Shown here: in pieces, positions 3,054 through 21,608 of the stretch | Layout of the letters: each line of letters begins with the position of its first letter | Position numbering within the stretch: the stretch's first letter is position 1 | Origin: a virus | Length of the DNA: 23,434 nucleotides | IMG/VR virus record: IMGVR_UViG_3300018080_000603 | Span: 1 to 23,434 of that record | Reading direction: 5' to 3' (one strand) | Translations under genes and position numbers: made by a program | Notes under the pieces: generated by a model | Told to the model about the DNA's origin: nothing | Database searches by the model: none | The model's input: the letters and a program-made list of their open reading frames with translations, nothing else

Positions 3054-4064
3054 TTATGCCACGTCCGCGTACACCACGGCTTCCGGCTTTTTCAGCACGG
3101 GAAGGAAACTGGACGCCACCAGGGCCTGAACGCCCGCAGGGTCCTTTTCAGTCCACGATTTGCTGAACAGTCCGGGCTTGCCGCCTGCTTCCACGTCTTC
3201 TGGCGAACCCTGCTGAATGTCGGCCAGCAGGTTTGTGATTTTGCCGCCCGCTTCCGGGCTGCGCTTGTCACCCTTCGCAATAATAAACACGTGGTCATCC
3301 GGCACGAACTGCGTATACGAACCGCCAGTGGGAACATACCCGTTGTCATATTCCACCACGTTGAGTCCGCACAGCTTGACAATCCGGCCTTCCTCGGCCA
3401 TTTGCCGTCCGTACTGCTGGCGCATCAGTTCACGCACCTTCGCATTGTCCACCAGATAGCCCATGACGGTGGAAGACACGAACATGTCCGTGGGCTGTTC
3501 GCCGCTGTCCTGGGTAATCAGCTTTTTCCAGGCGCGAATGTTTGCAATGGGGTCCGCGTTCGCCGTGTCTGACCATACGGTGCCAGCCGTGGGTTTGTGG
3601 CCTGCGGCAATGCCGTAATCCACCACAAATTGCACGTCTTCCTGGGCCACGGTTAGGGTGCCCTTCAGCATTTCCCAAAATGCGTATTCCCAGGTTTTCT
3701 TCACCTTCATGGTCAGGTCTTCCAGTTCAGCCTTCACGCGCTGTTCAGCCCACTGGCTGGCCCAGTCACCGCCAGGCTGGCGCAGGTGGTACAGCTGCAT
3801 GCCCTTGAGCAAACGCTTTTCGCGGATGCAGGCCATGCGTGCCACCTGGTGGTACACGTCCAGGTTTGTGTCCACGTGCGCGCCGGTGCCGAACTGACGG
3901 AACGGTGCCAGGTTCCGGCTGTTCCGCAATTCGTCCCATTCGGCCACCACGCCTGGGATATTATCCGCAAGCGGGCACATGGAAACGCCCATTAAGGGCA
4001 GGTGGGGAAACTTCGTCACCAGTGCTGTCAGCACTTTTGTTTCAAGCAGCTGCAGAGGTTCCAT
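3054..4064 (-). CDS. Major capsid protein, GpE family
   Basis: This 336-residue protein has the layout of lambda GpE-family major capsid proteins. The N-terminal part has a conserved stretch (APFRQFGTGAHVDTNLDVYH, then RMACIREKRLLKG) where subunits hold an N-terminal arm and E-loop. The middle has the paired-helix and strand pattern (VKKTWEYAFWEMLKGTLTV, then TDMFVSSTVMGYLVD). A C-terminal P-domain-like part has VPDDHVFIIAKGDKR and ends LPVLKKPEAVVYADVA. Length is normal for the family (about 330-350). It sits just after the decoration gene, the usual order in lambda-like heads, and is followed by a terminator hairpin. The AAGGGGG ribosome site at 4074-4080 decides the ATG at 4064. Four of the rare GAG/CTC words of this window fall inside this gene. 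Confidence 0.9.
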   Translation of the reverse strand: MEPLQLLETKVLTALVTKFPHLPLMGVSMCPLADNIPGVVAEWDELRNSRNLAPFRQFGTGAHVDTNLDVYHQVARMACIREKRLLKGMQLYHLRQPGGDWASQWAEQRVKAELEDLTMKVKKTWEYAFWEMLKGTLTVAQEDVQFVVDYGIAAGHKPTAGTVWSDTANADPIANIRAWKKLITQDSGEQPTDMFVSSTVMGYLVDNAKVRELMRQQYGRQMAEEGRIVKLCGLNVVEYDNGYVPTGGSYTQFVPDDHVFIIAKGDKRSPEAGGKITNLLADIQQGSPEDVEAGGKPGLFSKSWTEKDPAGVQALVASSFLPVLKKPEAVVYADVA

Positions 4065-4073
4065 TGTTCATTT

Positions 4074-4080
4074 CCCCCTT
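4074..4080 (-). promoter_or_regulatory. Ribosome-binding site AAGGGGG of the capsid gene
   Basis: AAGGGGG lies 9 bases before the capsid ATG and overlaps the stop codon of the decoration gene. It differs by one base from the consensus AAGGAGG; the changed A removes a GAG. A G at that place can still pair with the anti-Shine-Dalgarno U as a G-U wobble. The same form precedes 2538 and 7988, and close variants precede 2925 and 4459. Confidence 0.8.
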
Positions 4081-4459
4081 AACCCAGGTCCAGGCCCAGG
4101 TCCGTTTTGTCATAGACAATACGGCCCTTCGTGTCCACGGCGGCTGCCGCGTCAAAACCTGTCAGTTTGTCTTCCGCCACCACGCCAACAATCAGCATGT
4201 TGCCGGGCATGTTCGCAGCGCCGCTGGCGTCCACGTCCAGGTCCAGAATTCCGCGTGCGTCTTCCAGCCCCGTTACGGAAGCGTCATCATAGGCATCCGC
4301 CAGCTTCGAAGCGGTGATAATGCCCATAACGGTTCCTTTCGCCAGTGCGCCTGCACCGGCCACAATTGTGATTCCCTGAAACACGCACTTGTCCAGGCCG
4401 CACAGCTTGTATTCGCTGCTCACGCCCTGGGTAGTGGTAATACCGGGATTTCCAGGCAT
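4079..4459 (-). CDS. Head decoration protein, gpD-like
   Basis: This is a 126-residue protein with the pattern of lambda gpD-like decoration proteins. It has a short variable N-terminus, then AGALAKGTVMGIITASKLAD near residues 35-55. Next come a VTGLEDARGILDLDVDA segment, GNMLIVGVVAEDKL and a short C-terminal end. Such proteins trim or stabilise expanded capsids as trimers on the outer surface. The gene lies between the protease-scaffold gene and the capsid gene, the classical place for it. The ATG at 4459 has an AGGGGG site at 4470-4475. Individual residues are not diagnostic, so the call rests on the motif pattern, length and synteny together. Confidence 0.75.
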   Translation of the reverse strand: MPGNPGITTTQGVSSEYKLCGLDKCVFQGITIVAGAGALAKGTVMGIITASKLADAYDDASVTGLEDARGILDLDVDASGAANMPGNMLIVGVVAEDKLTGFDAAAAVDTKGRIVYDKTDLGLDLG

Positions 4460-4487: not shown

Positions 4488-6032
4488 TTATTCGGTCAGT
4501 TCGCCACGTGTGGCTTTCACGGCCTGGGCCTTGTCCGAATCGGACATGGCCGCCCATTCGGCCTTTGACTTCCCGGTGTAAACCCGGTTCGCCTCGCTGT
4601 CCGCGTCCGCCGCACTCATGTTCACGCCGTCTTCCTGGCCGCTATTTGCGCCTTTCTGTCCGGCGGTTTCTCCGAATTGCACGGAAGGCGTGGTGCCTTC
4701 CACGTACATGCGGAACAGGGCATTGACCGGCAGCGGGTCCTGCCCGTCCGCATAGGACACTTTCCCCATGCCGCCCAGGTTCGGGCTTGCAAGGGCAAGG
4801 GCCACGTCTTTGAACTTGGGAAGAATCTTCCCGGCTTCCACCTGGGCCTTCACCCAGGCTTCGGCTTCGCTGAAGGCGGCCTGCTGGGCGGCCTTCACGC
4901 TGTCCAGGGCCATGCGGCGCACGGTGGCCGGGTCCAGGTTGTCCAGTGCGGCCTGCATGTCCGCGTCACTGAACTGGATTCCGGCAGGAATGACCATGCC
5001 GCTGTCCCCGAACTTGGGCAGCCTGGTGCTGTCCGCATTCTTCACGGGCACCGGGTATCCGAACCCCTTTTGCTTCATTTCCTTTTCGTCTTCTGGTTCG
5101 TCTTCGTCCTGCATTCCGGGCGCTGCGGTTTTCTTGGCTTTGCCCTTCGTGCCCATTTTCGCTGCCTTTTTCTTTGCAGCGGGCGTGGCACAGGTGGCTG
5201 CCTTGTCCGCATTGTCCGCGCTGTCTTCGGCGTCCGCGCCGTCCGTGGCTTCGTCTTCGTCTTCGGTTTCGGCTTCGTCCCCGTCTTCGGCTTCCGTGCT
5301 GTCCGTGCCGTCTTCGGTTTCGCCTGTTTCGGCGTTTTCGTCTTCGGCGTCAGCTTCGCCTTCGCCTTCAGTGCCCTGGGCCTGGGTGCTTTCGGCTTCC
5401 GGGTCCTGGGTTCCGTCTTTTTTCTTTTCGGCTTTCGGGTCCATTTCGTCCCCCTGAAAATTGATTGCCACTCCTGATTCGTCTTCCGCTGCCAGGGCTA
5501 CATAGGCCAGGCCGGATTCAGAAAGGGTGGCTGATATTTCTTCCATTCCTTTGACTTCTGGAATGGGCACAAATGAAACGGCCCGCAGCACATTTGCCAT
5601 GCGTGTTCCGTCCGGGCGTGTCCAGGGCCGTGGTTTGTCGTGCAGTTCCGCACTGCGGAAGCGAAACGCTTTCCGCTTTATCAGGTCCATGACCTGATTT
5701 GACACAAGGCGGAAGTCTGCGAACAGGTCCCTTCCCACAGCATAAACCTTTTCTGCCCAGCCTAATACCGGATTTCCCCGGTTGTCATCTTCGTGGCTGG
5801 ATTTCAAAGGCGGCACATGTTCGCCAGCGGCCTTCAGCATTTCGAAATGCGAAGCAATCTGCTGCAGGTCCTGGTTATTCCATGCGCCCTTGTTTTTGTG
5901 GGTGTAATCACCGGCACGGAAAATCTGAACGCCCTTCAGCAAGGGCTGGTGGCTTGAAGAATTAAGGAAGGAATTTACGGCGTCATGCTGTTTTGCGGCG
6001 GTCTTTTTGTGCATGCTTCCATGTGCCCGCAC
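4488..6032 (-). CDS. Prohead protease with acidic scaffold-like tail (Mu gpI-like)
   Basis: This 514-residue protein has three parts. Residues ~33-190 match the Mu gpI-like prohead protease pattern: IFRAGDYTHKNKGAWNNQDL, then H80 in PPLKSSHEDD, GWAEKVYAVGRDLFADFRLV and S127 in FRFRSAELHD. H80 and S127 are the likely catalytic pair. Residues ~205-290 are an extreme Glu/Asp/Ala/Thr tract and then a Lys-rich stretch. The C-terminal part is helical, with residues such as DMQAALDNLDPATVRRMALD, and is probably the scaffold that is cleaved during maturation. Despite dozens of Glu residues I found only one GAG codon. The GTG at 6032 is tentative; an in-frame ATG at 6014 (MHKKTAAKQHD) is the main alternative. 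Confidence 0.8.
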   Translation of the reverse strand: MRAHGSMHKKTAAKQHDAVNSFLNSSSHQPLLKGVQIFRAGDYTHKNKGAWNNQDLQQIASHFEMLKAAGEHVPPLKSSHEDDNRGNPVLGWAEKVYAVGRDLFADFRLVSNQVMDLIKRKAFRFRSAELHDKPRPWTRPDGTRMANVLRAVSFVPIPEVKGMEEISATLSESGLAYVALAAEDESGVAINFQGDEMDPKAEKKKDGTQDPEAESTQAQGTEGEGEADAEDENAETGETEDGTDSTEAEDGDEAETEDEDEATDGADAEDSADNADKAATCATPAAKKKAAKMGTKGKAKKTAAPGMQDEDEPEDEKEMKQKGFGYPVPVKNADSTRLPKFGDSGMVIPAGIQFSDADMQAALDNLDPATVRRMALDSVKAAQQAAFSEAEAWVKAQVEAGKILPKFKDVALALASPNLGGMGKVSYADGQDPLPVNALFRMYVEGTTPSVQFGETAGQKGANSGQEDGVNMSAADADSEANRVYTGKSKAEWAAMSDSDKAQAVKATRGELTE

Positions 6033-6632: not shown

Positions 6633-6815
6633 CTATACATACCCTATGCATGCCCCATGGGAAGGGTATTTATACCCTTTCATGGAATGGACAATTAAGG
6701 GAACATTCAGCCGAACCCAAGAAGAAACGGGCAGCCTTGCTTTGCATGAACGTGCAGCCGAATGGGCACCCGTAGGGCACCCGTTTTCATGCACTGAAGA
6801 ATGACATTCAATCAT
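6633..6815 (-). CDS. Doubtful small ORF in an AT-richer spacer
   Basis: This 60-codon frame begins with an ATG at 6815 that overlaps the preceding stop as TAATG, the junction used elsewhere in this block. The product (MIECHSSVHENGCPTGAHSA at its start) resembles nothing I know. Codon use is unlike the neighbours (TCT, TCA, TTA and ATA appear). The frame runs through the palindrome at 6662-6679. It may be a decayed gene, a real small gene, or chance in a regulatory spacer. If it is not coding, 6591-6814 is the longest non-coding stretch of the window (224 bases). Confidence 0.25.
   Translation of the reverse strand: MIECHSSVHENGCPTGAHSAARSCKARLPVSSWVRLNVPLIVHSMKGYKYPSHGACIGYV
6662..6679. promoter_or_regulatory. 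Perfect 18-base palindrome, possible operator or hairpin
   Basis: AAGGGTAT, two bases, then ATACCCTT form a perfect inverted repeat with 8-base arms. A further ATACCC copy lies at 6639-6644, in the same AT-richer spacer upstream of the gene starting at 6590. The compact two-fold symmetry suits a dimeric DNA-binding protein better than a terminator, since no T-run follows. A TATAAA lies inside the palindrome on the minus strand and could serve as a -10 box, but no convincing -35 box is visible. Confidence 0.4.
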
Positions 6816-7015
6816 TATTTGATTTCTTCCATGCCCGTTTCATGGCCGCCTTGCACGTTTCTGCAGTGCGGGCACGTCACCTGGTCCTGTGCGCGGTGCA
6901 GATATGGCTTGCCGCATTTCAGGCACCGGTACCGCTTCAGCGGCGGAACTGACTTGCTGGTGCCAGCACCCATTCCCTGGGAACCCATGCCGCCGCTACC
7001 CATTTTTCCGTTCAT
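6815..7015 (-). CDS. Small zinc-ribbon protein
   Basis: This 66-residue protein has a Gly/Met-rich flexible N-terminus (KMGSGGMGSQGMGAG) and then a zinc-ribbon with two CxxC knuckles: YRCLKCGKPY and TCPHCRNV, at about residues 30-52. This fold often mediates nucleic-acid or protein contacts. It starts as ATGA on the stop of the upstream gene, so it is probably translationally coupled. Its function within the head cluster is unknown. Confidence 0.7.
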   Translation of the reverse strand: MNGKMGSGGMGSQGMGAGTSKSVPPLKRYRCLKCGKPYLHRAQDQVTCPHCRNVQGGHETGMEEIK

Positions 7016-7761
7016 TTCGCCAGCACCGCCTTTCCGGGTCCTGCGGCTTGGGCCGCTTCGCTTTTCGGTTCAGCTGCCCTGGGAATGTCCAGGCCGGACA
7101 CTGGGCTGTACTGCCACAGTTCCAGCTGGCTTCCACGGTCCACGGATTCGCTGTGCGTGTCCACATACGGCTGCTGTTCCTTCGGCCTTTCCACCTGCCA
7201 CATGCCAGCGGTTTGTTTGAACAGCCAGCGCCCGTTCAGGCTTGACAGCTTCGGGTCAGAAAATTTCAGGAAGTATTCGTGGAAGCCAGGCTTTTGCGTG
7301 CCGTATGTCATGAAGCCTTTTCCAATGGGAAGCACGAACCCGTCATGTTCCCGTGTGGCACCTGGGTTCCCTTTTTCAATCCGCCCACGGAAGCCAAGCC
7401 AGGCAGCTTCGTGAACTTCCTTCATGGTCCCCTGTGTTGCCTGGCCCTTCAGGAATTTGTCCGCTTTCTTTTGCGTGCCTGGCGTAAACAGCGTCCAGCC
7501 GATTGCCTGACCGTCAGGACGTTCCATGCGCAGGTCCCCGTGAATTCCCACGGGTTCGTTCGCGCCGTTTTCCAGGTTCAGCTTCGCGTCTTTGTCCGTC
7601 CATTCTTCAGGAAGTGCGCGGGCGTGCCATTGATACACGAAAGGAAATGACCGTGAACCTGGCTGGCGCACCAGGTAATCACGCGCTGACTGGAACACCT
7701 GGGCCAGTGCCGGAATGTCTGACAGCTGAATGTATTTCACAGCTGCTGGTTCGTCATTCAC
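7012..7761 (-). CDS. LigD 3'-phosphoesterase-like protein
   Basis: This 249-residue protein begins at GTG 7761, which forms GTGA with the previous stop and has a GGCGGG site six bases upstream. A longer frame opens at GTG 7803 but overlaps the neighbour by 46 bases. The core resembles the 3'-phosphoesterase (PE) domain of bacterial LigD. FPFVYQWHARA (H46) matches the first His block, and IHGDLRMER (H74, D76, R78) matches the HxDxR metal-binding motif. Then come WLGFRGRIEKGNPGATREHD, like the FEGxIPxGxYGAG block, and a GRWLFKQ end like KGRWxLxR. About 20 extra residues separate H46 from H74. PE enzymes remove 3' phosphates or ribonucleotides during end repair. Its presence among head genes is unexpected. 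Enzyme activity is inference. Confidence 0.6.
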   Translation of the reverse strand: MNDEPAAVKYIQLSDIPALAQVFQSARDYLVRQPGSRSFPFVYQWHARALPEEWTDKDAKLNLENGANEPVGIHGDLRMERPDGQAIGWTLFTPGTQKKADKFLKGQATQGTMKEVHEAAWLGFRGRIEKGNPGATREHDGFVLPIGKGFMTYGTQKPGFHEYFLKFSDPKLSSLNGRWLFKQTAGMWQVERPKEQQPYVDTHSESVDRGSQLELWQYSPVSGLDIPRAAEPKSEAAQAAGPGKAVLAK

Positions 7762-7988
7762 ACCAGGCCCGCCTTCATTAACCGCTGGTAGTTCTGCAAG
7801 CACACGCCGTCTTCAATTTCCCAGGTGGACCAGTGTTCCCGGATTGCCTGCTGCTTGCACCCGCACTTGCAGTCCGTCATGGCTTCCAGCATTGCCTGCA
7901 CCACGTCTTCATTCGCCCGCCTGCTGACCTGGGCCGAAGCCCTGGGGTCAGGTACCGCTGCCCGCGCTTTCGCCTGTGTTTCCGGCAT
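7758..7988 (-). CDS. Small Cys-cluster hypothetical protein
   Basis: This 76-residue protein has a charged Ala-rich N-terminus, a helix (NEDVVQAMLEAMTD), a tight CKCGC cluster at residues 40-44 and a further Cys in EDGVCLQNYQRLMKAG. The four cysteines could bind a metal, but no known ribbon spacing is present. The ATG at 7988 has an AAGGGGG ribosome site at 7995-8001. It lies 18 bases after the portal-fusion gene and overlaps the next gene by GTGA. No family recognised. Confidence 0.6.
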   Translation of the reverse strand: MPETQAKARAAVPDPRASAQVSRRANEDVVQAMLEAMTDCKCGCKQQAIREHWSTWEIEDGVCLQNYQRLMKAGLV

Positions 7989-8006: not shown

Positions 8007-10823
8007 TTACAGCTTGAAGCCTTCCTGCGGTTCTTCCGCAGGCCGTGTTTCCGTTCGCTTCCATTCTTCGCCGCGCACGTAGGGAACCACAATGCTGCGG
8101 CAATTAAAATGATTCGGCGGTACGATTTCCTGCCAGGCCGGGTCCGAAGGCGGCCTGGTGAACCCGTCATATGAACGGCAAAATTCAGTGGTGCGGCTGT
8201 CAATGATTGCCGAATACTGCAGGGCTTCCACCACGTCTTCCACGTCCGGGTCCGAATACAGGGCCATGCGTCCTGAATTGTAGGCTTCCGCCAGGTTCGT
8301 GCGCACTATGGTTTCCAGGCGGCCAGGCGTTCGCAGAATCGTTTTCCCGGTTTGCGGGTCTACCCTGATTTCGCCGGTCATGACGTACTTTGAAAAAACG
8401 TTGTCCACCTGGCCCATGATTGACGGAACGCTGCTGCCACGGGCCAGCCCTGTTTCCAGCACATACTTGACTTCAGCCAGTATTCGTTCCTTTTCCACAC
8501 CAGTGACAGTGAACGCCCGGCGCAGGTATGCACGCAGCGCCCGGCGCAGTGTGGGCCGCTTTGCCGCCAGGTATTCTATGGCGTCCGCCGGGTCCAGGTT
8601 CGGCGCAGCGAACCGCAGGTGTTCAAGGTCCAGCTGGATTTCGAAGTGCAGGCCGTATGGTCCGTCTTCGAATCCGGCCAGCTTTTTGCCCAGGGCCTTT
8701 CCCACTTCAGTGGAACCGTCCTGAATCCCCTTCACATAATCCAGGGTGTACAGGTCTTCCATTGCCTTGCGGAAATTCCCCATTTCTTTGACCGGCAGCT
8801 GCAGCTTGTCAATGTCGCTTGGCTTCCCGCTGTCAGCAATCCTGCGGGCCTGCTTCGTCACGGCACGCTTCACGCCGCGCATGGCGTCTTCCAGCTTGTC
8901 CACCGTAACGTTCGTCAGGGCTTCCCACCAGTTCTGGATTTCCTGGAAGTCTACCTTGCGTTCGGCTTCCGTCTTCGGCCTGGGCAGCTTGCGCACCTTC
9001 AGGTCCGTGGCCGGTGGGGTCATGGCCGTGGCCTTGCCCTGCCCTTCCTGGAACCCTGCGCTGGTGCTTCCCCTGGTCATGGGCGTTCCGCATTTCGGGC
9101 AGTTCACTTCACTGCATGGCTGGCCGGTTTCATGGTCAGCCTTCATACCGCACTTTGGACACACGCACCTTCCACCTGGTCCGGCAGCCAGTAGCCCTTC
9201 CATTCTTCCACGCCCGCCGTTTTCTTCCAGCAGCGCCACGTATGACGCCAGGCTTTCATGCCTGGGCCAGTCCGTGGCAGGGCTATGCTTGGCTTCCATG
9301 AACGGAACCACGCTGCGCAGCATGTAATCACGAATGCTGAAGGCGTCCTGGGTGTCACCCTGGCTGACGCTGCCCGTGTCCTGGTCCCCGCCTTTGTCAG
9401 GCCCTGGTTCGGCCTTCGGCGCTGGTGCTGGTTCGGCCCTTCTCTGCTGTTCGTCTTCCACCACCTGGGGAAAGCCCAGCTTTTCACGAACCCAGGGTGC
9501 CGTGGCGTCCGGCAGCGCGCCCAGGTTTGCGGCACGTTCCAGCAGTTCCGCATATTCGTTTTCCCTATCCGGGCCGTATTCATTGAATTTGAAATACGGG
9601 TACGCTTCCACGTTCCTGAAATTGTAATCAATCAGGCGGCGCACCAGCTGTTCGTTTATGATTTCTTCCACCAGCGCGCCCAGATAATTAAGCACATAAA
9701 TGAACACACGGCCATGTTCACGCCCCAGGGCCTGGGTGCCACGTTCTCCTTCGTCAGTGGTAAGGGTTGGAAGCAGAATGGCCTTCACAATTTCCTTATC
9801 ATAATGCTTCACCGCTGCTTCAAAGCCAGCCTTCCCATTCTTCCCGCTTTCAAGCAGATTCAGCTTCACGCCTTCGGGAACATAAAAACTGCTGGCTGTC
9901 TGTATCTTGTCCAGCATGTCCAGCAAGTAATCTTTGTCAGCCTGTGACAGGCCGCCCTGCTGTTCGCTTCCGTCAGGTTCGGATTCTCCCTGGTCTTCCA
10001 TTTCCGGCAGCGTGGCATACACCGTTGGCATTCCGAATTTTTCCAGAGCAACATTCCAGTATCGGCCCACCATATCTTTGCTGAAATAGGCCCGGTATGC
10101 GGCGCGCAAGTCGCTGGTTCCATACCAGTTCCCATGTTCGCCATTGTAGGAAAACACAATGAACTTTTCAGGTGGCAGCTTTGACTGCTGGCCGGTGGTC
10201 AGGCCCTGCACCAGCTGAATAAGATTCCCGTATTTGTCAGTCACAAAGTCCCAGTCCCTGGGGTCCTTCGTCTTCAGTGTGTCAAGCCCCAGGTATCCGG
10301 CCCACTTCCCGCGCTTGTATATGGTCCAGTTTTCTTCCGTGACGCTGAACCCGTATGGAAGCGCAGACATGACACGGCGCAGGGCTTCAAGAAAATTCCC
10401 ACGCATGTGTTCAATGTTGTATTCCGTGAACGCTGCCAGTTCCGCTGCCCTGGGTTCCACGCTTTCGTCAGGTGGCAGGATTGAATATCCGGTGGACAGG
10501 CGGGCAAGTATTTTCGTTTCAATGGCGTTCTTCACCACTCCGTCACGCCGCATCATGTCACGGTAAACTACCAGGCCACGGCGGCTTACCAAGTCGTCAG
10601 GATTGTACGGAATAAGGCCATTCAACCATTGCTTGCTGATTGAATCCACGGCCAGTTCGCGCAGCAGAATGCCACGTGAAACGGTCATGGCTGGGCGTGC
10701 GCCTGGCGCACCTGGTGATTGATTGACTGCTGGAAGGGTGTTTGCGGATTCCTGGAACTGGTGGTGCCGCTTTACTATGGCCTGTCCCGTATTTCGGCGG
10801 CCAGCGGCCCTGCGTTTACTCAT
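8007..10823 (-). CDS. Portal protein fused to Mu gpF-like head morphogenesis domain
   Basis: This single 938-residue frame joins two proteins that are usually separate. Residues ~45-480 match DUF935-type portal proteins (Mu gp29 family): SRRGLVVYRDMMRRDGVVKN, then RVMSALPYGFSVTEENWTIY, then KYGNLIQLVQG and a long FYVPEGVKLNLLE region. A zinc-ribbon-like Cys cluster follows at ~553-580 (CVCPKCGM, PCSEVNCPKCG). Residues ~700-930 match the Mu gpF / SPP1 gp7 head-morphogenesis family, with RTNLAEAYNSGRMALY near 835-855, DSRTTEFCRSYDG and PPNHFNCRSIVVP near 905-915. The portal ring is the DNA gate of the head; gpF-like proteins help assembly or are ejected. It starts as ATGA on the large terminase stop. 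I see no stop or frameshift between the parts. Confidence 0.88.
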   Translation of the reverse strand: MSKRRAAGRRNTGQAIVKRHHQFQESANTLPAVNQSPGAPGARPAMTVSRGILLRELAVDSISKQWLNGLIPYNPDDLVSRRGLVVYRDMMRRDGVVKNAIETKILARLSTGYSILPPDESVEPRAAELAAFTEYNIEHMRGNFLEALRRVMSALPYGFSVTEENWTIYKRGKWAGYLGLDTLKTKDPRDWDFVTDKYGNLIQLVQGLTTGQQSKLPPEKFIVFSYNGEHGNWYGTSDLRAAYRAYFSKDMVGRYWNVALEKFGMPTVYATLPEMEDQGESEPDGSEQQGGLSQADKDYLLDMLDKIQTASSFYVPEGVKLNLLESGKNGKAGFEAAVKHYDKEIVKAILLPTLTTDEGERGTQALGREHGRVFIYVLNYLGALVEEIINEQLVRRLIDYNFRNVEAYPYFKFNEYGPDRENEYAELLERAANLGALPDATAPWVREKLGFPQVVEDEQQRRAEPAPAPKAEPGPDKGGDQDTGSVSQGDTQDAFSIRDYMLRSVVPFMEAKHSPATDWPRHESLASYVALLEENGGRGRMEGLLAAGPGGRCVCPKCGMKADHETGQPCSEVNCPKCGTPMTRGSTSAGFQEGQGKATAMTPPATDLKVRKLPRPKTEAERKVDFQEIQNWWEALTNVTVDKLEDAMRGVKRAVTKQARRIADSGKPSDIDKLQLPVKEMGNFRKAMEDLYTLDYVKGIQDGSTEVGKALGKKLAGFEDGPYGLHFEIQLDLEHLRFAAPNLDPADAIEYLAAKRPTLRRALRAYLRRAFTVTGVEKERILAEVKYVLETGLARGSSVPSIMGQVDNVFSKYVMTGEIRVDPQTGKTILRTPGRLETIVRTNLAEAYNSGRMALYSDPDVEDVVEALQYSAIIDSRTTEFCRSYDGFTRPPSDPAWQEIVPPNHFNCRSIVVPYVRGEEWKRTETRPAEEPQEGFKL

Positions 10824-12457
10824 GGCAGGCCCCCTGCACTTGTTCTACTTGCCACTATGCCCGCCCGCTTTCTGATTGTTTGTTTTACCCTGCGTCCATA
10901 CCCTTTGTCAAGCCACATGCGCAAGGCCAATTCAGCGTACACTTCAGCCAGCAGGAAGTGGTCAGGCTTTGGGCTAATCCACCGCACCACCGTTTGCCCA
11001 CGCTTATTAAGCCCCTTCACCCTGCGGCCTTTCTTCAGGTGGTCAAAATAGCCTGGTATCACTGGCGCATCCACCGGCAGGACCATTTGCTGCTGTTCCA
11101 GCCTGGTGCTGTACCAGGTGTCAAAGGCCAGGGTGCGGTTGCTGTTCAGCACCAGGTCTTTGTCCCTGGGTTCAATCAGGGCTGTTTTCATGCTGTCCTT
11201 CCACCAGTTCGCCCAAGCCCGCTTCGGGTGTCGTTTGCAAAAAGCCTTTACTGCGCTGGTTTCAGCCTGGCCGTCAATCACGGCCTGGTTCACCCGGAAC
11301 CGCTGCATTAATGGTTCCAGGTGGGAAAGCCTTTCGTCCATTGGAACTGTTCCAATGAATACTGGATACACACGGCCCTTTTCATATTTGTTCACACGGG
11401 TGTGAATGACTGCCCCAGGGTCAGCACCCAGGAACGTGTACCCGTCTTCCAGGGTGGGCGGCATTCTGTATTCCGGGTCCACCAGGGCGGCCAGGATTTC
11501 GTGGCCTATGCTGGCACCCTTCGGGCTGTATGGTTCGCCCAGGCTGCCATTGTAGAATGCCTGCATTTTGAATTCGTCCGTGGCTGCCAGGTACGCTGCC
11601 ACCAATTCTTCAATGCTGGCGGTGGGCGTGAACAGCTTTGAAATGTGCCACCCGGCAGCTGGTGCGCCAGGCTTCGTTGGAACCCAGCGCCCTTCCGCCA
11701 GGCGGTCCAGGGCCTTGCCGCAGCGCCTATTCCGACACCTGACCACATGGGCCTTCATGTCCACCCGGTCCCAGGTCAGTTGCTGCCAGGTTCCACAGTG
11801 TGGGCATGGCACTTCCCATTTCCGCTGGTCAGACAGCAGCCAGTCAGCGTGAATGCCAACGTTTTCGAATTCAGGCGTGGAAATATCCCGCAGCCATTTG
11901 TGCTGGCTGTTCCCGTACCGATCCAGGATTGCCGGTGCCACGTCAGGCGGTATCAGGTTTTTTTCGTCCCTGTATATTATATCCGCGTCCGCACTGGTGA
12001 TTTGCTTTATGTTCTGCGCACCTGAAAAGTAAATGGTACCTGCACCCAGGGTTTTAATGTACGTATTATCCAGGGTTTTATAGTACGTCCCACGCAGCTG
12101 GGCCGTCAGCCAGTCACTGCACTGTATGGCTTTATCAAAGCGGCCTTGCACGAACTGGGCACACTTGCTGAATGTGGGGAAGGCATAAAAAACATTCCAG
12201 CCTTCAGTGGTCATTTTCCACAGGGCTTCATTCAGGGCGTATTCAGACACCCTGCACTGCGCGGATTTCATAACCACCTTCCAGCGGTGGTCCAGGCTGT
12301 AGATTTCGTGCAGGTAATGGAAGCCTTCAAACGTGTTCTGAATACCCACACGGACCAGCGGCCTGCGCAATTCTGACCAGGTGATTAAATCAATTAGGCT
12401 TGTGCCTTCGGTCAGTTCATATTCCGTGGCCTGGGCCAGCACTCCCAGGTCATCCAC
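10820..12457 (-). CDS. terL: Large terminase subunit, GpA family
   Basis: This 545-residue packaging ATPase/nuclease resembles lambda GpA-type large terminases. An adenine-binding/Q-like region (TFEGFHYLHEIYSLD) is followed by a divergent Walker A at ~61-72 (VVMKSAQCRVSE), where the usual GxGKS is not present. Walker B and the catalytic acid are ADADIIYRDE (D164-E165). A four-Cys zinc knuckle follows (C218, C221, C241, C246), typical of GpA. The C-terminal RNase H-like nuclease has acidic residues D346 (FLGADPG), D395 (AVIDGQAE) and D499 (PKPDHF). The start is GTG 12457, preceded by GGTGGGG, overlapping the upstream stop by 8 bases. It powers DNA entry through the portal encoded immediately downstream. 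Confidence 0.9.
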   Translation of the reverse strand: MDDLGVLAQATEYELTEGTSLIDLITWSELRRPLVRVGIQNTFEGFHYLHEIYSLDHRWKVVMKSAQCRVSEYALNEALWKMTTEGWNVFYAFPTFSKCAQFVQGRFDKAIQCSDWLTAQLRGTYYKTLDNTYIKTLGAGTIYFSGAQNIKQITSADADIIYRDEKNLIPPDVAPAILDRYGNSQHKWLRDISTPEFENVGIHADWLLSDQRKWEVPCPHCGTWQQLTWDRVDMKAHVVRCRNRRCGKALDRLAEGRWVPTKPGAPAAGWHISKLFTPTASIEELVAAYLAATDEFKMQAFYNGSLGEPYSPKGASIGHEILAALVDPEYRMPPTLEDGYTFLGADPGAVIHTRVNKYEKGRVYPVFIGTVPMDERLSHLEPLMQRFRVNQAVIDGQAETSAVKAFCKRHPKRAWANWWKDSMKTALIEPRDKDLVLNSNRTLAFDTWYSTRLEQQQMVLPVDAPVIPGYFDHLKKGRRVKGLNKRGQTVVRWISPKPDHFLLAEVYAELALRMWLDKGYGRRVKQTIRKRAGIVASRTSAGGLP

Positions 12458-12821
12458 GCGGCCCCACCATTTCTGCAGGTGGCCTGGGTATTGTGCCCAC
12501 CAGTGAATTTGCGGGCCTCCATAGGTGCAAGCAATATGGGTGGTGGTTTACATAATCCGCTTCAGGCGGGTGCAGCTGCATGCAGCATTCATCAGGTTCA
12601 AAGAATAGATTTTTAATCCAGCACATTTCGTCCCAGGTCGGGCACCGGTCATTCAGGCTGACGCTGACGTGTTCCCAGCCGTGGCCCCTGGTAGCAATCA
12701 CCCGCAGGTGGGCGCTGCCCAGGACCAGGACGAAAGCGCCGTAATTCTGGCCGGGCTTCGTGGCCCACTGACTGCGCCGAATGCGCCCACCTTCCACCTG
12801 GGCTGGGAATGTGGCTTTCAT
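12450..12821 (-). CDS. DUF7694-like hypothetical protein
   Basis: This 123-residue protein carries a conserved pattern I know from many phages and prophages: GWEHVSVSLNDRCPTWDEMC, then WIKNLFFEPDECCMQLHPPE and YVNHHPYCLHLWRP. It matches the family annotated DUF7694 as far as I can tell from memory. The function is unknown. The His/Cys/Asp-rich motif could bind metal. Its ATG overlaps the nuclease-like gene by ATGA and its stop overlaps the terminase start by 8 bases. Confidence 0.65.
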   Translation of the reverse strand: MKATFPAQVEGGRIRRSQWATKPGQNYGAFVLVLGSAHLRVIATRGHGWEHVSVSLNDRCPTWDEMCWIKNLFFEPDECCMQLHPPEADYVNHHPYCLHLWRPANSLVGTIPRPPAEMVGPRG

Positions 12822-13441
12822 GCTTTCACATTTTGTGCTTTCAGTTGTTCCCGGTACCAGCGCCGCTGTTTATTATTTTTCACCGCACTGCACATGCTAC
12901 CGGCTGAAGCATAATGATTCGGGATTGTATTATATATTTCGCGCCAGGTGGCCTTCGGGTGCCTGCGCCTGTAGGATTTAATCACGGCTTCCACGTCAAT
13001 GGCTGGCCCTATGCCTGCCTGGCATGGAACGCCACCGTGCCCCTGGTATCCGGCTTCCTGGGCAGCCTGACATGCGTCCAGGGTGCGCTGCACCCAGGGA
13101 CCTGAAGGCGCGAAACGGGCCGCAGGTTCTAGCACCACGTCCACCTGTGCGCCATGTACCCGCAGTATTCCCAGGCCCAGCTTCCGGCACTGGTCAACGT
13201 TGCGTGGATTCGAATACACGCCCACATATGCGCGTTCAGTCACCAGCTGGCACGATGCAGCCTGGCGTATCACTTTTTTTGTCAGATTCAGCTTCAGTTC
13301 AATACACACCAGTTCATTTCTTTTGTGTGCCACCACGTCCACTGTCCTATAAAACAGCGGCAGTTCCCCGAATACACGGAAGCCCTGGTGCCGAAGCCAC
13401 CGCTTCACTGGCAGGAACATGCGGGATTCCGTCATTTTCAT
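12818..13441 (-). CDS. PD-(D/E)XK nuclease-like protein
   Basis: In this 207-residue protein the N-terminal ~100 residues fit a PD-(D/E)XK nuclease core: helix MFLPVKRWLRHQGFRVF with E26, strand TVDVVAHKR with D35, then LVCIELKLN with E48 and K50 and the following helix TKKVIRQAA. D35, E48 and K50 form the usual catalytic pattern. The C-terminal part (from ~150) has IDVEAVIKSYRRRHPKATWR and a following Trp/Lys/Arg-rich end that may be an HTH-type DNA-binding helix set. It could be a restriction-like or repair endonuclease, or act on packaging ends given its place just before the terminase. Substrate and target sequence are not visible. Confidence 0.65.
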   Translation of the reverse strand: MKMTESRMFLPVKRWLRHQGFRVFGELPLFYRTVDVVAHKRNELVCIELKLNLTKKVIRQAASCQLVTERAYVGVYSNPRNVDQCRKLGLGILRVHGAQVDVVLEPAARFAPSGPWVQRTLDACQAAQEAGYQGHGGVPCQAGIGPAIDVEAVIKSYRRRHPKATWREIYNTIPNHYASAGSMCSAVKNNKQRRWYREQLKAQNVKA

Positions 13442-14098: not shown

Positions 14099-14318
14099 AC
14101 TTCCACCGCCTTTCGTAAATCTGGTCCCACTGGGCCTGGACGGCGCAGCGCCAGCCCCATTCGCCCAGTTCGTCCTTCACGTGCGCGGATATAATGGCAT
14201 TTTCGATTCCCCGCACCATGAAGGAATACACCATGCGGTCAAGGTCAAACACCACGCCGGTTTCAGGGTGGCATAGGTCCTGGCAAATGTCCGTGGGGTC
14301 TTCGTGCTGCATTCCCAT
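14088..14318 (-). CDS. Hypothetical small protein
   Basis: This 76-residue protein starts at ATG 14318, which overlaps the HAD gene stop as TAATG and follows an AGGGGA site six bases upstream (14325-14330). A longer frame from 14420 would overlap the HAD gene by 103 bases with a Gly/Ala/Pro shadow-like product and is not accepted. The protein has HEDPTDICQDLCHPE, then YSFMVRGIENAIISAHVKDE and a Trp-rich basic end. No family is recognised. Confidence 0.6.
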   Translation of the reverse strand: MGMQHEDPTDICQDLCHPETGVVFDLDRMVYSFMVRGIENAIISAHVKDELGEWGWRCAVQAQWDQIYERRWKYGH

Positions 14319-15004
14319 TAGAAGTCCCCTGGCCGCACCTGCCAGCAGGGCAGCCCCAGGTCCTGGCGCACCATGCGCACCACGCTGTCCCGGTCTTCCA
14401 GCCACACCACCACGTCCCACCTGGGTTCGATTGTTTCCCGGTACACCCTGGCCTTCAGTTCATGGTCCGGGCAGTGGTCCCCGTCCGGGCGCATGTACAG
14501 GTGCGTGTTCACGCTGTCTTCACCTGCCCATGTAATGAAATTATGCTTGGTCAGCCAGCCCCTTGTTTGCTTCATGTATTCCCACGGGCGGCCTGTCAGG
14601 AAAATAGGCGTGATGCCCTGGGCAATCAGACCACGGACTACTACCTGGCAGGCACGCACTGGCGGGTCTTTTTCCGCTGCTTCATAAAAGGCTTTCCAGT
14701 CAGGCTTCGGGCCGTTCCCGTTTTCTATATGGTCATATACCTTGCGCACCAAGTGGACACGGTGTGAACAGTCAGCAGCGGTGCCGTCAATATCGCACAC
14801 GAACGCAAGAGGTTTTCCATTGCGCAGCACGTCTTCTAGGCACCACCCATTGCAATGCATAAGGCCCTTCAGCTGGTGTTTCACCTTTCCGTCCTGGTCA
14901 GTCCTGGTGTCCAGCACTTCATATGTTTTGTCAGGGTCCCTGGGGTCAGCCAGACTTTGCTGCAGCCGTACCAGGTCCCCCGCTTTGAACTTCGGGCCGT
15001 TCAT
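14318..15004 (-). CDS. HAD phosphatase with SH3-like N-terminus, PNKP 3'-phosphatase type
   Basis: In this 228-residue protein, residues 1-60 (FKAGDLVRLQQS, TYEVLDTRTD, HQLKGL, NGWCLEDVL) look like a small SH3/KOW-type beta barrel. From 66 on it is a HAD-fold phosphatase: motif I AFVCDIDGTAAD (nucleophile D71, acid/base D73), motif II IFLTGRP (T137), probable motif III K184, motif IV VVWLEDRDS (E201, D202). The domain most resembles the 3'-phosphatase half of T4 polynucleotide kinase, but the kinase half is missing. It may clean 3' ends or act on another phosphate ester. Its ATG overlaps the small terminase stop as TAATG and has an AAAGGCGGTGA ribosome site (15009-15019). Confidence 0.7.
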   Translation of the reverse strand: MNGPKFKAGDLVRLQQSLADPRDPDKTYEVLDTRTDQDGKVKHQLKGLMHCNGWCLEDVLRNGKPLAFVCDIDGTAADCSHRVHLVRKVYDHIENGNGPKPDWKAFYEAAEKDPPVRACQVVVRGLIAQGITPIFLTGRPWEYMKQTRGWLTKHNFITWAGEDSVNTHLYMRPDGDHCPDHELKARVYRETIEPRWDVVVWLEDRDSVVRMVRQDLGLPCWQVRPGDF

Positions 15005-15672
15005 TATGTCACCGCCTTTGACTTTTTCAGCACAGCATCCCGCAGCTGCTGCCTGGTCAGCTTCCCTTTTTCAAGTGCGGACAGCAGCGCCTTTTTCACG
15101 TGTTCCACGCCAGGGCTTGCCTGTTCCCTGTCCACGCCGAACCGTACCAGCAGGCTTTCGTCCCGGCCTTCCAGCAGGGCGGTTTCGGTTTTAATGGCGT
15201 TCAATAGGTCATTCACCGTCACCTTTTCTACCTTGCCAGCCAGTATGGCGTCCACCAGGGTTTCCCGAACCAGGGCCAGCTGGTCCAGGCTGGCTTTCCT
15301 GGTCAGCACGTACCGTTCGCCTATCACTTCCAGGAACTGCTTTGTGACACCTGCTATATATTCCTTTCGCAGCTGCGCCCAGTTTTCCTTTGAAGCGCGC
15401 CGGTGGACCACTGACACGTTACATTCCACTTTCTTGCCGTCACGGTCCTTCAGGTGGTCCAGCAGTTCTTCGTGCGTCAGATACCGGCTGCTGGTGATAT
15501 ATAGGCGCTTCGCCATTTCCCACTGAATGTGCTTCGGCCCAGTGCTTCCTTCGCCAGGCTTGCCCTTCGCAGTCTTCCGGGTGCCCGTTTTTGCTGCACT
15601 TCCTTTTGACTTGCTGGGCCGTTTTCTGGCTGGTGCTGTCTTTTTCTTGGCTGCCTGTTTTTTACTCGCCAT
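15004..15672 (-). CDS. Candidate small terminase subunit
   Basis: This 222-residue protein starts at ATG 15672, four bases after AAAGGTGG. The first ~45 residues are Lys/Ala/Arg-rich (SKKQAAKKKTAPARKRPSK), like a histone tail. Then comes a helix-turn-helix-like region (WEMAKRLYITSSRYLTHEEL to VVHRRASKENWAQLRKEYI) and a long helical part (LALVRETLVDAILAGKVEKV, LNAIKTETALLEGRDES). HTH followed by KENWxxLR and oligomerising helices is the usual plan of phage small terminases that bind pac/cos DNA. Seven genes separate it from the large subunit, which is unusual, so another DNA-binding role remains possible. Confidence 0.55.
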   Translation of the reverse strand: MASKKQAAKKKTAPARKRPSKSKGSAAKTGTRKTAKGKPGEGSTGPKHIQWEMAKRLYITSSRYLTHEELLDHLKDRDGKKVECNVSVVHRRASKENWAQLRKEYIAGVTKQFLEVIGERYVLTRKASLDQLALVRETLVDAILAGKVEKVTVNDLLNAIKTETALLEGRDESLLVRFGVDREQASPGVEHVKKALLSALEKGKLTRQQLRDAVLKKSKAVT

Positions 15673-15676
15673 TATT

Positions 15677-15684
15677 CCACCTTT
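15677..15684 (-). promoter_or_regulatory. Ribosome-binding site deciding the start at 15672
   Basis: AAAGGTGG lies four bases before ATG 15672. This favours a 222-residue product over a longer frame from 15732 that would overlap the previous gene by 41 bases and has no ribosome site. Confidence 0.7.
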
Positions 15685-15691
15685 CGAAGCC

Positions 15692-15997
15692 CTATTGATA
15701 CCGCTTGAATGCCCTATACTGTAACATTGCACTGCACTTTCGGCAAGTCCCCAGCCTTGTTTGTATCACAGCCAGGGATTCCCTTTCAGGCCACCCTGCT
15801 TTTCCTTCAGCGCCCTGGCATATCAGTTCCAGGCGTTCTTTGTGTATGGCGTCCAGGTCCAGGCGCGCCACCAGGCAGTCAAAGCAAATTCCCAGGTTCA
15901 GGTCATAGTCCATTTCCATGACGCGCAGCGGTGTGCTGTTCGTCAATGGAACCAGTGGCTTGTCTTCGGCACCACATGCCACGCAGCTTTTTTTCAT
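15692..15997 (-). CDS. Small zinc-finger-like protein
   Basis: This 101-residue protein has three CxxC pairs: SCVACGAED near the N-terminus, ICFDCLVARL near residue 40 and TCRKCSAML near residue 88. The first two would make one metal site; the third sits by itself at the end. No enzymatic motif is visible. It starts as ATGA on the lipoprotein stop. A role in nucleic-acid binding is possible but not shown. Confidence 0.65.
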   Translation of the reverse strand: MKKSCVACGAEDKPLVPLTNSTPLRVMEMDYDLNLGICFDCLVARLDLDAIHKERLELICQGAEGKAGWPERESLAVIQTRLGTCRKCSAMLQYRAFKRYQ

Positions 15998-18634: not shown

Positions 18635-18940
18635 TTACTTCCCCTTTCTGTACGTTCTGGAATATCCGGCCATGTGCTTGCGCCAGGTCTTCCTGTGTGG
18701 CCTGAACTGGGCCTGCGTCCATTGCCATTCACGGCGCACCAGGGACCAGTACCGCTTCCTGTCAGTCTTCCGTACCTGCCACACTATGCGCACGAACCAC
18801 ACCCTGGTGAAGAACATTCCCACCCAGGCCGGGTATATAGGTTCCGGCTGACGCGGAAGCCTGGACAGCGCCCTGGTCAGCAGCTTGGCTGTAATGCGCG
18901 GGTGCTTCCCGTCCTTCGTGGCCCAGTTGTCCAGGTTCAT
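18635..18940 (-). CDS. Small basic aromatic-rich hypothetical protein
   Basis: This 101-residue, very basic protein has many Arg, Lys and Trp (ITAKLLTRALSRLPRQPEPI, RKRYWSLVRREWQWTQAQFR, HRKTWRKHMAGYSRTYRKGK). A segment near 38-55 (AWVGMFFTRVWFVRIVW) is hydrophobic but contains Arg, so it may be an interfacial helix. The charge suggests nucleic-acid binding, but no family is recognised. It starts as ATGA on the radical SAM gene stop. Confidence 0.55.
   Translation of the reverse strand: MNLDNWATKDGKHPRITAKLLTRALSRLPRQPEPIYPAWVGMFFTRVWFVRIVWQVRKTDRKRYWSLVRREWQWTQAQFRPHRKTWRKHMAGYSRTYRKGK
18638..18646 (-). promoter_or_regulatory. Ribosome-binding site deciding the start at 18632
   Basis: AAGGGGAAG places GGGG eight bases before ATG 18632. 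It is the clearest site in this stretch and fixes the short form of the gene. It is an A-to-G variant of AAGGAG. Confidence 0.7.
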
Positions 18941-19875
18941 TCCACACCGTCCAGTTCATTGACAGCTTGCATGAAACGGTGCGGAACCCCACGGTTTTTG
19001 ACGTGCAGAAATTCCAGCTGGTCCTGGCCGCGCTTCGTCTTCGCGCCGTCCGGCAGGCCCAGCATGGCGGCGCGGTGGTAAGTGGCAGGCGGCCTGGTCC
19101 ATATTGCTTGGAACTGGCCCCAGGCTTCGGTTTTCTGGTTCTTCCCTTCCGGGTCCCTGTAGAACATGGCGAACGGCAGCCCGCCCAGTTCCCACACGCG
19201 CACGCACCTGGCTTCCGCTTCCTGCAGCGTGTCACCTTCGAACCCCACCAGAACGTACACCTTCAGCTTCCGCCGGTGGAAGTGCGGGCACAGCTTCGCC
19301 AGGGCGCGCTGCAGCGGCCTTTCTTCGTTCGGGCGGTCATAGGCCATGAACAGGCGGCCCAGTTTGATTCCGCGCAGCTGTTCCACCACCCAGTCAGAAA
19401 CACGGGCCGCTTCCAGGCCGCCTGTGAAACAGGCTGGCTGGCCCTGTTCAGAAAGCATGCTGAATACAGCTGACACGTGGGCCTTGCTGCAGGCCAGCAG
19501 GTTATTGTCCAGGATTATGTGGCCTGGTTTGATTTCCAGCTGGCGCAGCTTACCTTCACGCTTCGGAACCAGGCAATGGGCGCAGCTATTCGGGCAGCCA
19601 CGGCTTGTCATGGTAAATCCAGGCTTCAGGTATAGGCCAGGCATGAATTCACCGCCTGGCGCGTTATAGGCCGGGCCGCCCACCTGGACGTTCGGGCAGA
19701 CAGCCCGCCATTGCTTCGCCAGGTTTTCGGCCCAGGGCTTGTCCCAGGTGAAAACACAGGACACATGCACCTGGTCATATACTTGGGCGCTGAACATGGG
19801 TGGCGGTCCATAGTAGGCGTCCACGTCCGTGGGCGTGTACGTTGTCCTGGAAGGGAACACGCGGGCCAGCTTCAT
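18937..19875 (-). CDS. Radical SAM protein
   Basis: This 312-residue protein starts at ATG 19875, which overlaps the upstream stop as ATGA. A GTG frame from 19926 adds 17 residues but breaks the coupling pattern. It has the radical SAM CxxxCxxC motif TSRGCPNSCAHC (C94, C98, C101), which binds the 4Fe-4S cluster. Before it lies VHVSCVFTWD and a GGPAY motif reminiscent of the Rossmann-like front domain in B12-linked radical SAM proteins. Later parts keep the barrel pattern (GHIILDNNLLA, ACFTGGLEAAR, LKVYVLVGFEGDT). The substrate is unknown. Similar proteins occur in several phage groups. Confidence 0.8.
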   Translation of the reverse strand: MKLARVFPSRTTYTPTDVDAYYGPPPMFSAQVYDQVHVSCVFTWDKPWAENLAKQWRAVCPNVQVGGPAYNAPGGEFMPGLYLKPGFTMTSRGCPNSCAHCLVPKREGKLRQLEIKPGHIILDNNLLACSKAHVSAVFSMLSEQGQPACFTGGLEAARVSDWVVEQLRGIKLGRLFMAYDRPNEERPLQRALAKLCPHFHRRKLKVYVLVGFEGDTLQEAEARCVRVWELGGLPFAMFYRDPEGKNQKTEAWGQFQAIWTRPPATYHRAAMLGLPDGAKTKRGQDQLEFLHVKNRGVPHRFMQAVNELDGVE

Positions 19876-20195
19876 GAAAGCCACCGCCGGAACCACCAGG
19901 GCTTGTCCTTCCCAAGCCACAGCCACTTACTGGGTGCTTTATGGTAGTTCGCACGTGCCAGCAGGTCCGGCCACCAGGAAGGCGAATCATTCACCTGAAC
20001 TGCCCCCAGTGGCACTGACTGACTGTCAACAAATTTGCTGACTTTTTTTGCCCGCAGCAGGGTGTACCGCATATCAATGCTGACAAGCGGTGGCGGCAGG
20101 CTTTCCAGGGTTTTTTTCCACTGCTTCAGCGTATCCAGCGTCACCGGTTCGCTTGAATCGGTTTTTGCCGTAGTCCATGCCTGGGATTCGTTCAT
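19872..20195 (-). CDS. Hypothetical protein
   Basis: This 107-residue protein has a Thr/Ser-rich front, a helix (LDTLKQWKKTLESLPPPLVS), a middle IDMRYTLLRAKKVSKFVDSQ and a Trp-rich end (DKPWWFRRWLS). No family recognised. Codon use matches the neighbours well in this frame. The ATG at 20195 has no clear ribosome site; ATG 20072 is an alternative that would leave room for the small ORF at 20074-20247. Confidence 0.55.
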   Translation of the reverse strand: MNESQAWTTAKTDSSEPVTLDTLKQWKKTLESLPPPLVSIDMRYTLLRAKKVSKFVDSQSVPLGAVQVNDSPSWWPDLLARANYHKAPSKWLWLGKDKPWWFRRWLS

Positions 20196-20266: not shown

Positions 20267-20854
20267 TCAGTGTAGTTTATCTGCAGCGCCTGGACCAGCC
20301 CAGGCAGGGTTCCCTTTCTTCAGTGTGTCCAGGTCCCCGCTGGCTTCAATTTCCTTGAACAGCACAGCGGCAATTGCCAGGGCGTCCGCTTCGTCTTCCT
20401 GGTGTGGCAATAGCTTGTCCCACTTCCAGAACCGCTGGACGGCTTCCATTATCATGGCCTTGTTTGCCTTGCGTGCCGTGTGGGCCGTTCGCACACCAGC
20501 CTTTTTGCAAAGGCGCTTCAGGCCCAGCACCTTGAACCGCTGGGTTTGCTGAATTTCATTCACGGCCTGGCGGGCGTTCCCTTCATAGGCCATATATACA
20601 ATGTTCCTGAATCCTGCAATCATGTCAGTGGTCCGCATGCCACGCAGGACCGGCTGCTGTTCCATGCAGCAGAATGCTGACGGGTACCGCTGAATGACTG
20701 ACAGCACGCCGCCGTAAAAGGAAAGCAGATTGATTCCACGGCTGGCTTTGTTGTCACGTTCCCAGGCTCCCACGGCCACCACTTTCTGGTGTTCATCCAC
20801 CACGGCAAAGCCCGTGCGGGTGCTGGATACGTCCCAGGCCGTAATCAGGTTCAC
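20267..20854 (-). CDS. RuvC-like Holliday junction resolvase
   Basis: This 195-residue protein has an RNase H-fold in which the RuvC acidic residues can be followed: D8 in LITAWDVSSTRTGFAVVD, E65 in AFCCMEQQP and the pair D154/D157 in HQEDEADALAIA. The layout and length match RuvC-type resolvases (about 170-190). In phages such enzymes cut branched DNA before packaging. The start is GTG 20854, forming GTGA with the upstream stop. The C-terminus (WAGPGAADKLH) is short and poorly conserved. A different RNase H-like nuclease role cannot be excluded. Confidence 0.8.
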   Translation of the reverse strand: MNLITAWDVSSTRTGFAVVDEHQKVVAVGAWERDNKASRGINLLSFYGGVLSVIQRYPSAFCCMEQQPVLRGMRTTDMIAGFRNIVYMAYEGNARQAVNEIQQTQRFKVLGLKRLCKKAGVRTAHTARKANKAMIMEAVQRFWKWDKLLPHQEDEADALAIAAVLFKEIEASGDLDTLKKGNPAWAGPGAADKLH

Positions 20855-21246: not shown

Positions 21247-21608
21247 GTGGCTTTCCCTTTCTGTTCCTGGGAACAGCTGTCACAATACAGCGGAATGTCA
21301 GGCGGCGCGCTGACCACCTTTTTTCCAGGCGTCCTGGGCTTGGCTTTTTTCAGGACGCGGGCCTTGTCAAGGCGCGAAAACAGGCGCTTGCACCTATCAC
21401 ACAAAAACACGGTGTGCCAGTTCAGGCCGCCGATTCCTTCAGACAGTGAAAGGGAATAGTACGGCGTGGCGGTCCAGTCCTGTATTTTCAGCTGCGTGCC
21501 CTTTTTCTTGCCCATGTCTGGTCCGTTATACACTGCACTTTCCCCCTGTGTAAATAGCTGAATGACGCACCGGCAGTTCACGTGGACGGGCGGCCAGCGT
21601 TCGGTCAT
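21243..21608 (-). CDS. Small Cys-pair protein with MuF-like front
   Basis: This 121-residue protein begins TERWPPVHVNCRCVIQLF, a motif like the C-terminal PPxHxNCRC end of Mu gpF-type proteins. It is followed by an unrelated part with two CxxC pairs, VFLCDRCKRLFSR and LYCDSCSQEQKG, spaced like a zinc finger. An AGGTGACAGGG stretch precedes the ATG at 21608. An internal ATG (21515, MGKKKGTQLKIQDW) is possible and would remove the MuF-like part. The function is unknown. Confidence 0.55.
   Translation of the reverse strand: MTERWPPVHVNCRCVIQLFTQGESAVYNGPDMGKKKGTQLKIQDWTATPYYSLSLSEGIGGLNWHTVFLCDRCKRLFSRLDKARVLKKAKPRTPGKKVVSAPPDIPLYCDSCSQEQKGKAT

Follow-up and report, generated by a model that had tools for sequence, protein, structure and literature searches.

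The window analyzed here is a linear viral fragment of 23.4 kb (23,434 nucleotides; IMG/VR record IMGVR_UViG_3300018080_000603). Between positions 7012 and 7761, the plus strand is closed by stop codons, and the minus strand carries an intact open reading frame (ORF) of 249 codons, at the coordinates given by the initial annotation (Table 1). The GTG start overlaps the TGA of the preceding gene, and the TGA of this gene overlaps the ATG of the following one. Since start and stop overlap both adjoining genes, the gene looks translationally coupled. It lies downstream of the genes for the terminase large subunit and the portal-MuF protein and upstream of those for the head protease, the decoration protein, and the major capsid protein. 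Profile comparisons and a predicted structure (described below) show that it encodes a single LigD-type 3'-phosphoesterase (PE) domain of a viral branch, inside a head gene cluster.

Table 1. Predicted genes and protein features at the PE locus of the window
Feature	Positions	Strand	Basis or detail
Solo LigD-type PE gene	7012..7761	-	249 aa, GTG 7761 to TGA 7012; held-out viral PE profile, fold match
Small gene upstream of PE, overlaps PE start	7758..7988	-	
Zinc-ribbon-like gene (66 aa), overlaps PE stop	6815..7015	-	
Portal (Mu type) fused to MuF-like minor head domain	8007..10823	-	Pfam PF06074 5.4e-67, PF04233 5.1e-15
Terminase large subunit (GpA type)	10820..12457	-	Pfam PF05876 1.7e-19
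Head maturation protease/scaffold-like gene	4488..6032	-	PHROG 976, 1.9e-29
Head decoration protein (lambda D type)	4079..4459	-	Pfam PF02924 2.3e-9
Major capsid protein (E type)	3054..4064	-	Pfam PF03864 1.6e-41
PNKP-type HAD phosphatase gene	14318..15004	-	Pfam PF25109 1e-25; PHROG 415 8.8e-32
Q44-W45-H46 = LigD Q40-x-H42 (H42 metal ligand)	7624..7632	-	Profile alignment to 3p43/3p4h/3n9b
H74-G-D76-L-R78 = LigD H48-x-D50-x-R52	7528..7542	-	Profile alignment
K114 and H117	7411..7422	-	H117 = LigD H84 equivalent
W121 at LigD Y88 position	7399..7401	-	Invariant in viral family
Q156-KPGFHEYF-164, viral-branch signature	7270..7296	-	Used for collection scan
Insertion of ~21 residues between first His and HxDxR	7549..7611	-	Predicted helix H56-65

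The PNKP-type phosphatase gene sits between the terminase large subunit gene and a gene at 15004-15732, which occupies the position of a small terminase subunit. The phosphatase is a candidate for a second 3'-end-healing enzyme of the window phage, near the packaging genes. Upstream of the terminase gene, a 207-aa protein (12818-13441) has an ELK-type motif like that of PD-(D/E)XK nucleases and a weak match to PHROG 12193, a group of unknown function. The 938-aa portal-MuF ORF has a zinc-ribbon-like CxxC pair between its portal and MuF domains.

Queried on its own, the window PE protein matched nothing in Pfam, PHROGs, NCBIfam, or the sequences of the PDB, and the Pfam family LigD_N does not detect it. 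A weak ribosomal L3 match (E = 0.57) was dismissed as chance, as was the single match of a plasmid search (a pseudoazurin region; E = 7). The identity was settled through relatives: the ANMV-1 virus first, then about 50 non-redundant ORFs from a motif scan. A single relative emerged when 50,697 phage records were searched with tblastn. It lies within an 866-aa protein (AJP62006.1) that is annotated as "ATP-dependent DNA ligase" and belongs to ANMV-1, whose source is methane-seep archaea; the homologous part covers 52% of the query (E = 7e-5). Once these two sequences had been aligned, another virus could be recovered, and after it a third. When viral contigs were scanned with a DNA pattern for Q[KRE]Pxx[FY]HEYF, 66 stretches matched, of which nearly all contain the full domain; a further match lay in a Thermoprotei archaeon MAG. 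Protein-pattern scans of viral contigs that started from the window protein alone, the ANMV-1 domain alone, or the portal-MuF protein gave no relatives, which in these contigs were recovered only via the two-sequence alignment and then the motif pattern. Five pattern matches (L034, L038, L050, L057, and L060) were discarded because they are located in tiny frames. The PE domain is carried by related viruses, but no close relative was found. The small Thermoprotei MAG contig L071 (QMRH01000090.1), which encodes PE and ligase in one ORF, possibly comes from a provirus or a virus.

A profile built from 35 relatives, with the window sequence left out, was run on every six-frame ORF from the window and from the fetched loci. 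It matched the window ORF with 87.8 bits (E = 1.8e-25), and no other window ORF matched at E ≤ 10. Because this held-out profile picks out the window ORF at such an E value, the PE motif match is more than chance. When 37 PE domains were combined into a profile, the PDB search recovered all solved LigD PE chains (3p43, E = 3.4e-4; 3p4h, 8.8e-4; 3n9b, 0.24; 2lj6, 0.25; 5dmp, 0.91), these being five of the seven matches among 177,635 sequences, with the catalytic stretches in register in the alignment. Another profile, drawn chiefly from motif-bearing C-terminal PE copies, matched 3p4h at 2.1e-11. At the family level, homology to LigD PE is also visible from the other side, as Pfam LigD_N matches 23 of the 50 relatives (best E = 3.1e-9).

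The fold prediction agrees with these profiles. An AlphaFold2 model from the window protein and 35 relatives (core mostly with pLDDT >90) is a PE beta-barrel, and structural alignment against the PDB put five PE crystal structures on top: archaeal 3p43 (Z = 13.5) and 3p4h (13.1), Pseudomonas aeruginosa 3n9d (11.1) and 3n9b (10.8), and Methanocella 5dmp (10.4). The next, unrelated chain had a Z of 3.8. The predicted fold is therefore common to the window protein and LigD PE (LigD_N, PF13298; Z of 10 to 13.5). Superposition on the LigD PE structures gave an rmsd of 1.6 to 2.6 Å (1.6 Å over 117 residues for 3p43), and the two strands bearing H46, H74, and D76 fall within the 1.6-Å superposition. 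With Foldseek alone, 3p4h was the sole structure with E < 0.001. A comparison with predicted viral proteins yielded one confident match, an 827-aa protein. The profile match, the modeled fold, and the metal site all place the window protein in the LigD-type PE superfamily, and the earlier reading of the gene as a LigD PE-like domain is supported rather than replaced by a different fold.

We compared the window residues with the LigD active site, in which His42, His48, and Asp50 bind the metal, Arg52, His84, and Tyr88 lie at the sulfate, and Gln40 and Ser61 are supporting residues (PMC8656161). The profile alignment pairs H46, H74, and D76 with the metal ligands, Q44 with Gln40, R78 with Arg52, and H117 with His84. 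In the aligned relatives, Q occupies the Q44 position in 27 of 32 and H the H46 position in 33 of 33, and 44 of 50 first PE copies preserve the full [QEH]xH...HxDxR motif. The initial annotation had listed H46, H74-x-D76-x-R78, and a GNPGATRE block; all are present, and Q44 and H117 are further matches to catalytic LigD residues. The 20 or so extra residues that it placed between the first His and HxDxR are also real: the H-to-H spacing is 28 in the window but 6 in LigD, and most relatives have a spacing of 7. Long loops at this site occur in two relatives as well (L006 and L071).

The phosphate pocket differs from that of LigD. All viral copies have Trp in place of Tyr88, a residue essential in P. 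aeruginosa LigD; G88 of the window stands where LigD has Ser61. The viral signature QKPxFHEYF is a further difference from LigD. The window retains the LigD-like His at position 117, a site taken by Q or E in 33 of 35 relatives, and 34 of 35 relatives have Lys at position 114. Because Tyr88 is Trp throughout the viral branch and Ser61 is Gly, the pocket is remodeled, and the metal site is conserved; the conserved Lys may take over in the remodeled pocket. As the window protein lacks two marks of LigD proper, namely, Tyr88 and a covalent or operon link to a DNA ligase (within the 23.4-kb linear record), it is a member of a viral branch of the PE superfamily rather than a LigD PE proper.

Most relatives carry one or two further PE-like copies C-terminal to the first PE, and the C-terminal copies have an invariant H, H, D, R, one Lys, and one Gly. 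The motif is lost in 35 of 41 second copies and kept in 16 of 18 third copies. The second copies illustrate that noncatalytic reuse occurs in the family, and together with the Trp at the Tyr88 position, they would fit a PE fold reused as a structural or DNA-binding part of the head. We consider such reuse improbable for the window protein, which keeps every metal ligand, R78, and even the His84 equivalent that most relatives lack.

The initial annotation described the gene as standing alone among capsid genes with no ligase. This description holds for the window record, where the neighbors are portal/MuF and protease/capsid genes and a PF01068 search of the 23.4-kb linear fragment (beyond which a distant ligase gene is possible) found no ligase, but not for the family, as a ligase is present in 43 of 51 records. 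Nor does the window have an AEP polymerase, another difference from LigD. Among 50 non-redundant ORFs, the ligase is in the same ORF in 20 and in the adjacent upstream ORF in another 20 (40/50 together); most of the remaining 10 are truncated at the border of the retrieved DNA. Most ligase-bearing ORFs also have a domain that is called nucleotidyltransferase (NTase)-like from a G[GS]...DxD motif recognized by eye; a profile of this domain found no convincing PDB match. An XkdF (Peptidase_S78_2) head protease forms the C terminus of the PE ORF in 11 cases and is encoded by the next ORF in 11 more. The gene order of the window is that of the relatives, with portal and MuF-like genes upstream and head protease and capsid genes downstream.

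Five single ORFs (L004:313-4977, L012:1307-5218, L022:10090-14301, L041:5838-11189, and L045:3065-8980; 1300 to 1970 aa) combine ligase, PE copies, and XkdF, most of them with the NTase-like domain. The NTase-ligase-PE-XkdF proteins (L004, L022, L041, L045, and others; 1400 to 1970 aa) share the PE domain and the place in the head cluster with the window protein but are multidomain, whereas the window protein is a PE domain only. The 1632-aa protein of L003 (4014-8918), encoded between portal and S78 head protease genes, chains together a PNK3P phosphatase, an NTase-like domain, a DNA ligase, a 2H phosphoesterase, and PE domains, and so unites both kinds of 3'-end-healing domain (PNKP-type phosphatase and PE). 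The ANMV-1 gene likewise lies between portal and MuF-like genes and encodes a PE homologous to that of the window; unlike the latter, this PE shares its chain with an NTase-like domain, a ligase domain, and another PE-like copy, and M occupies its R78 position.

The 2H domain of L003, an RNA_ligase match in 3 of the 50 relatives, and the activity of LigD PE on 3'-ribonucleotides (PMC8656161) raise the possibility that the enzyme acts on RNA ends, in tRNA or mRNA repair, instead of on phage DNA. We give this idea very little weight: the companion ligase matches a DNA ligase family in 17 PE-bearing ORFs, with E values down to 8e-25.

Against proteins of up to six domains in the relatives, the single-domain window protein is the lone and most divergent version. 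It has an end branch of 3.1 in the tree, its placement being unsure owing to this length, and it is the sole clearly solo copy without a nearby ligase among those examined; the 23.4-kb linear fragment is without the relatives' ligase, NTase, extra PE copies, and XkdF. Solitude and a long branch might be expected of a decaying remnant of a larger ligase-PE-protease protein. This origin is most improbable, given the full-length intact ORF, the start and stop overlapping the neighboring genes, and the complete active-site motif.

We somewhat favor the reading that the window protein is an active 3'-end-healing enzyme that is made with the head, probably packaged in it, and delivered at infection. 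By analogy with LigD and from its residues, the putative Mn2+-dependent enzyme would strip 3'-phosphates or 3'-ribonucleotides from DNA ends, and the healed ends would be sealed by a ligase, either the host's or one encoded outside the fragment. A T4 PseT-like polynucleotide kinase/3'-phosphatase would yield the same ligatable 3'-OH with an unrelated HAD fold, and the window encodes one such HAD phosphatase too. Gene position and the relatives' protease fusions suggest that the PE is made with the head proteins and enclosed in the prohead with the DNA; we infer this entry because a domain that shares its polypeptide with a prohead protease, as in those relatives, would be expected inside the shell. 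Once delivered, the enzyme may mend or finish the ends of the incoming genome. The case for packaging is weaker for the window copy, as it is joined to neither ligase nor protease.

Other enzymes whose genes accompany those for portal and MuF have been suggested to be delivered with the genome (PMC5512222). These polyvalent or MuF-fused phage effectors have enzymatic domains beside portal/MuF genes, as here, and carry several effector domains per polypeptide, whereas the window protein is single-domain; that account does not mention LigD.

An active PE could instead remain unpackaged, being expressed late and acting inside the infected cell before the DNA is packaged; concatemer ends or recombination ends are conceivable substrates. 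The catalytic residues would be kept in this case also, the window copy is tied to the head by gene position alone, with no signal or fusion, and the window has a RuvC-like gene. Still, the head-protease fusion in 11 ORFs and the portal-protease location in many viruses are hard to explain for a soluble replication enzyme, and for this reason, we regard an unpackaged enzyme as rather unlikely.

Extending the packaged-enzyme reading to the family, we tentatively propose, as a possibility short of an even chance, that many tailed viruses of bacteria and archaea build an NTase-ligase-tandem PE repair machine, often as one chain with the head protease, into the prohead, where the protease would free it for injection with the genome. 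The window protein would be a stripped-down version that uses another ligase. The branch as a whole would have an altered PE active site, with the conserved Lys standing in for LigD His84/Tyr88.

LigD PE is a known part of cellular end joining, and DNA repair in virions has been reported for some large eukaryotic viruses. Dozens of uncultivated viruses encode PE, with a ligase and frequently on one polypeptide with a head protease, within their head clusters. This arrangement suggests that certain viruses produce their DNA repair kit along with the head, such that repair may be built into some virions, and it provides a testable explanation for why late operons include enzymes of this type. 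The domain family itself was already known; the viral ligase-PE-protease cassette and the active-site variant appear undescribed; a limited search of the open-access literature turned up no paper on PE or ligase genes in head clusters. For the PE family, this would be a new active-site variant, and unusual ligases could be obtained from these viruses. The finding would also allow more precise annotation of proteins such as the ANMV-1 "ATP-dependent DNA ligase."

Several other features were observed in the family and in the window. A D12 class adenine DNA methyltransferase matched 7 of the 50 PE-bearing ORFs, which hints at a genome protection kit. Intein/LAGLIDADG-like insertions lie within the PE of L005:6536-9625, L025:4683-7727, L020:3-1916, L039:10645-13632, and L053:1-2355. 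Elsewhere in the window, there are a radical-SAM-like gene (18937-19926; PHROG 9298), the RuvC-like gene (20267-20854), and a Gp37/Gp68-like gene assigned by eye (21605-22309); ANMV-1 also has a RuvC-like nuclease and gp37/gp68.
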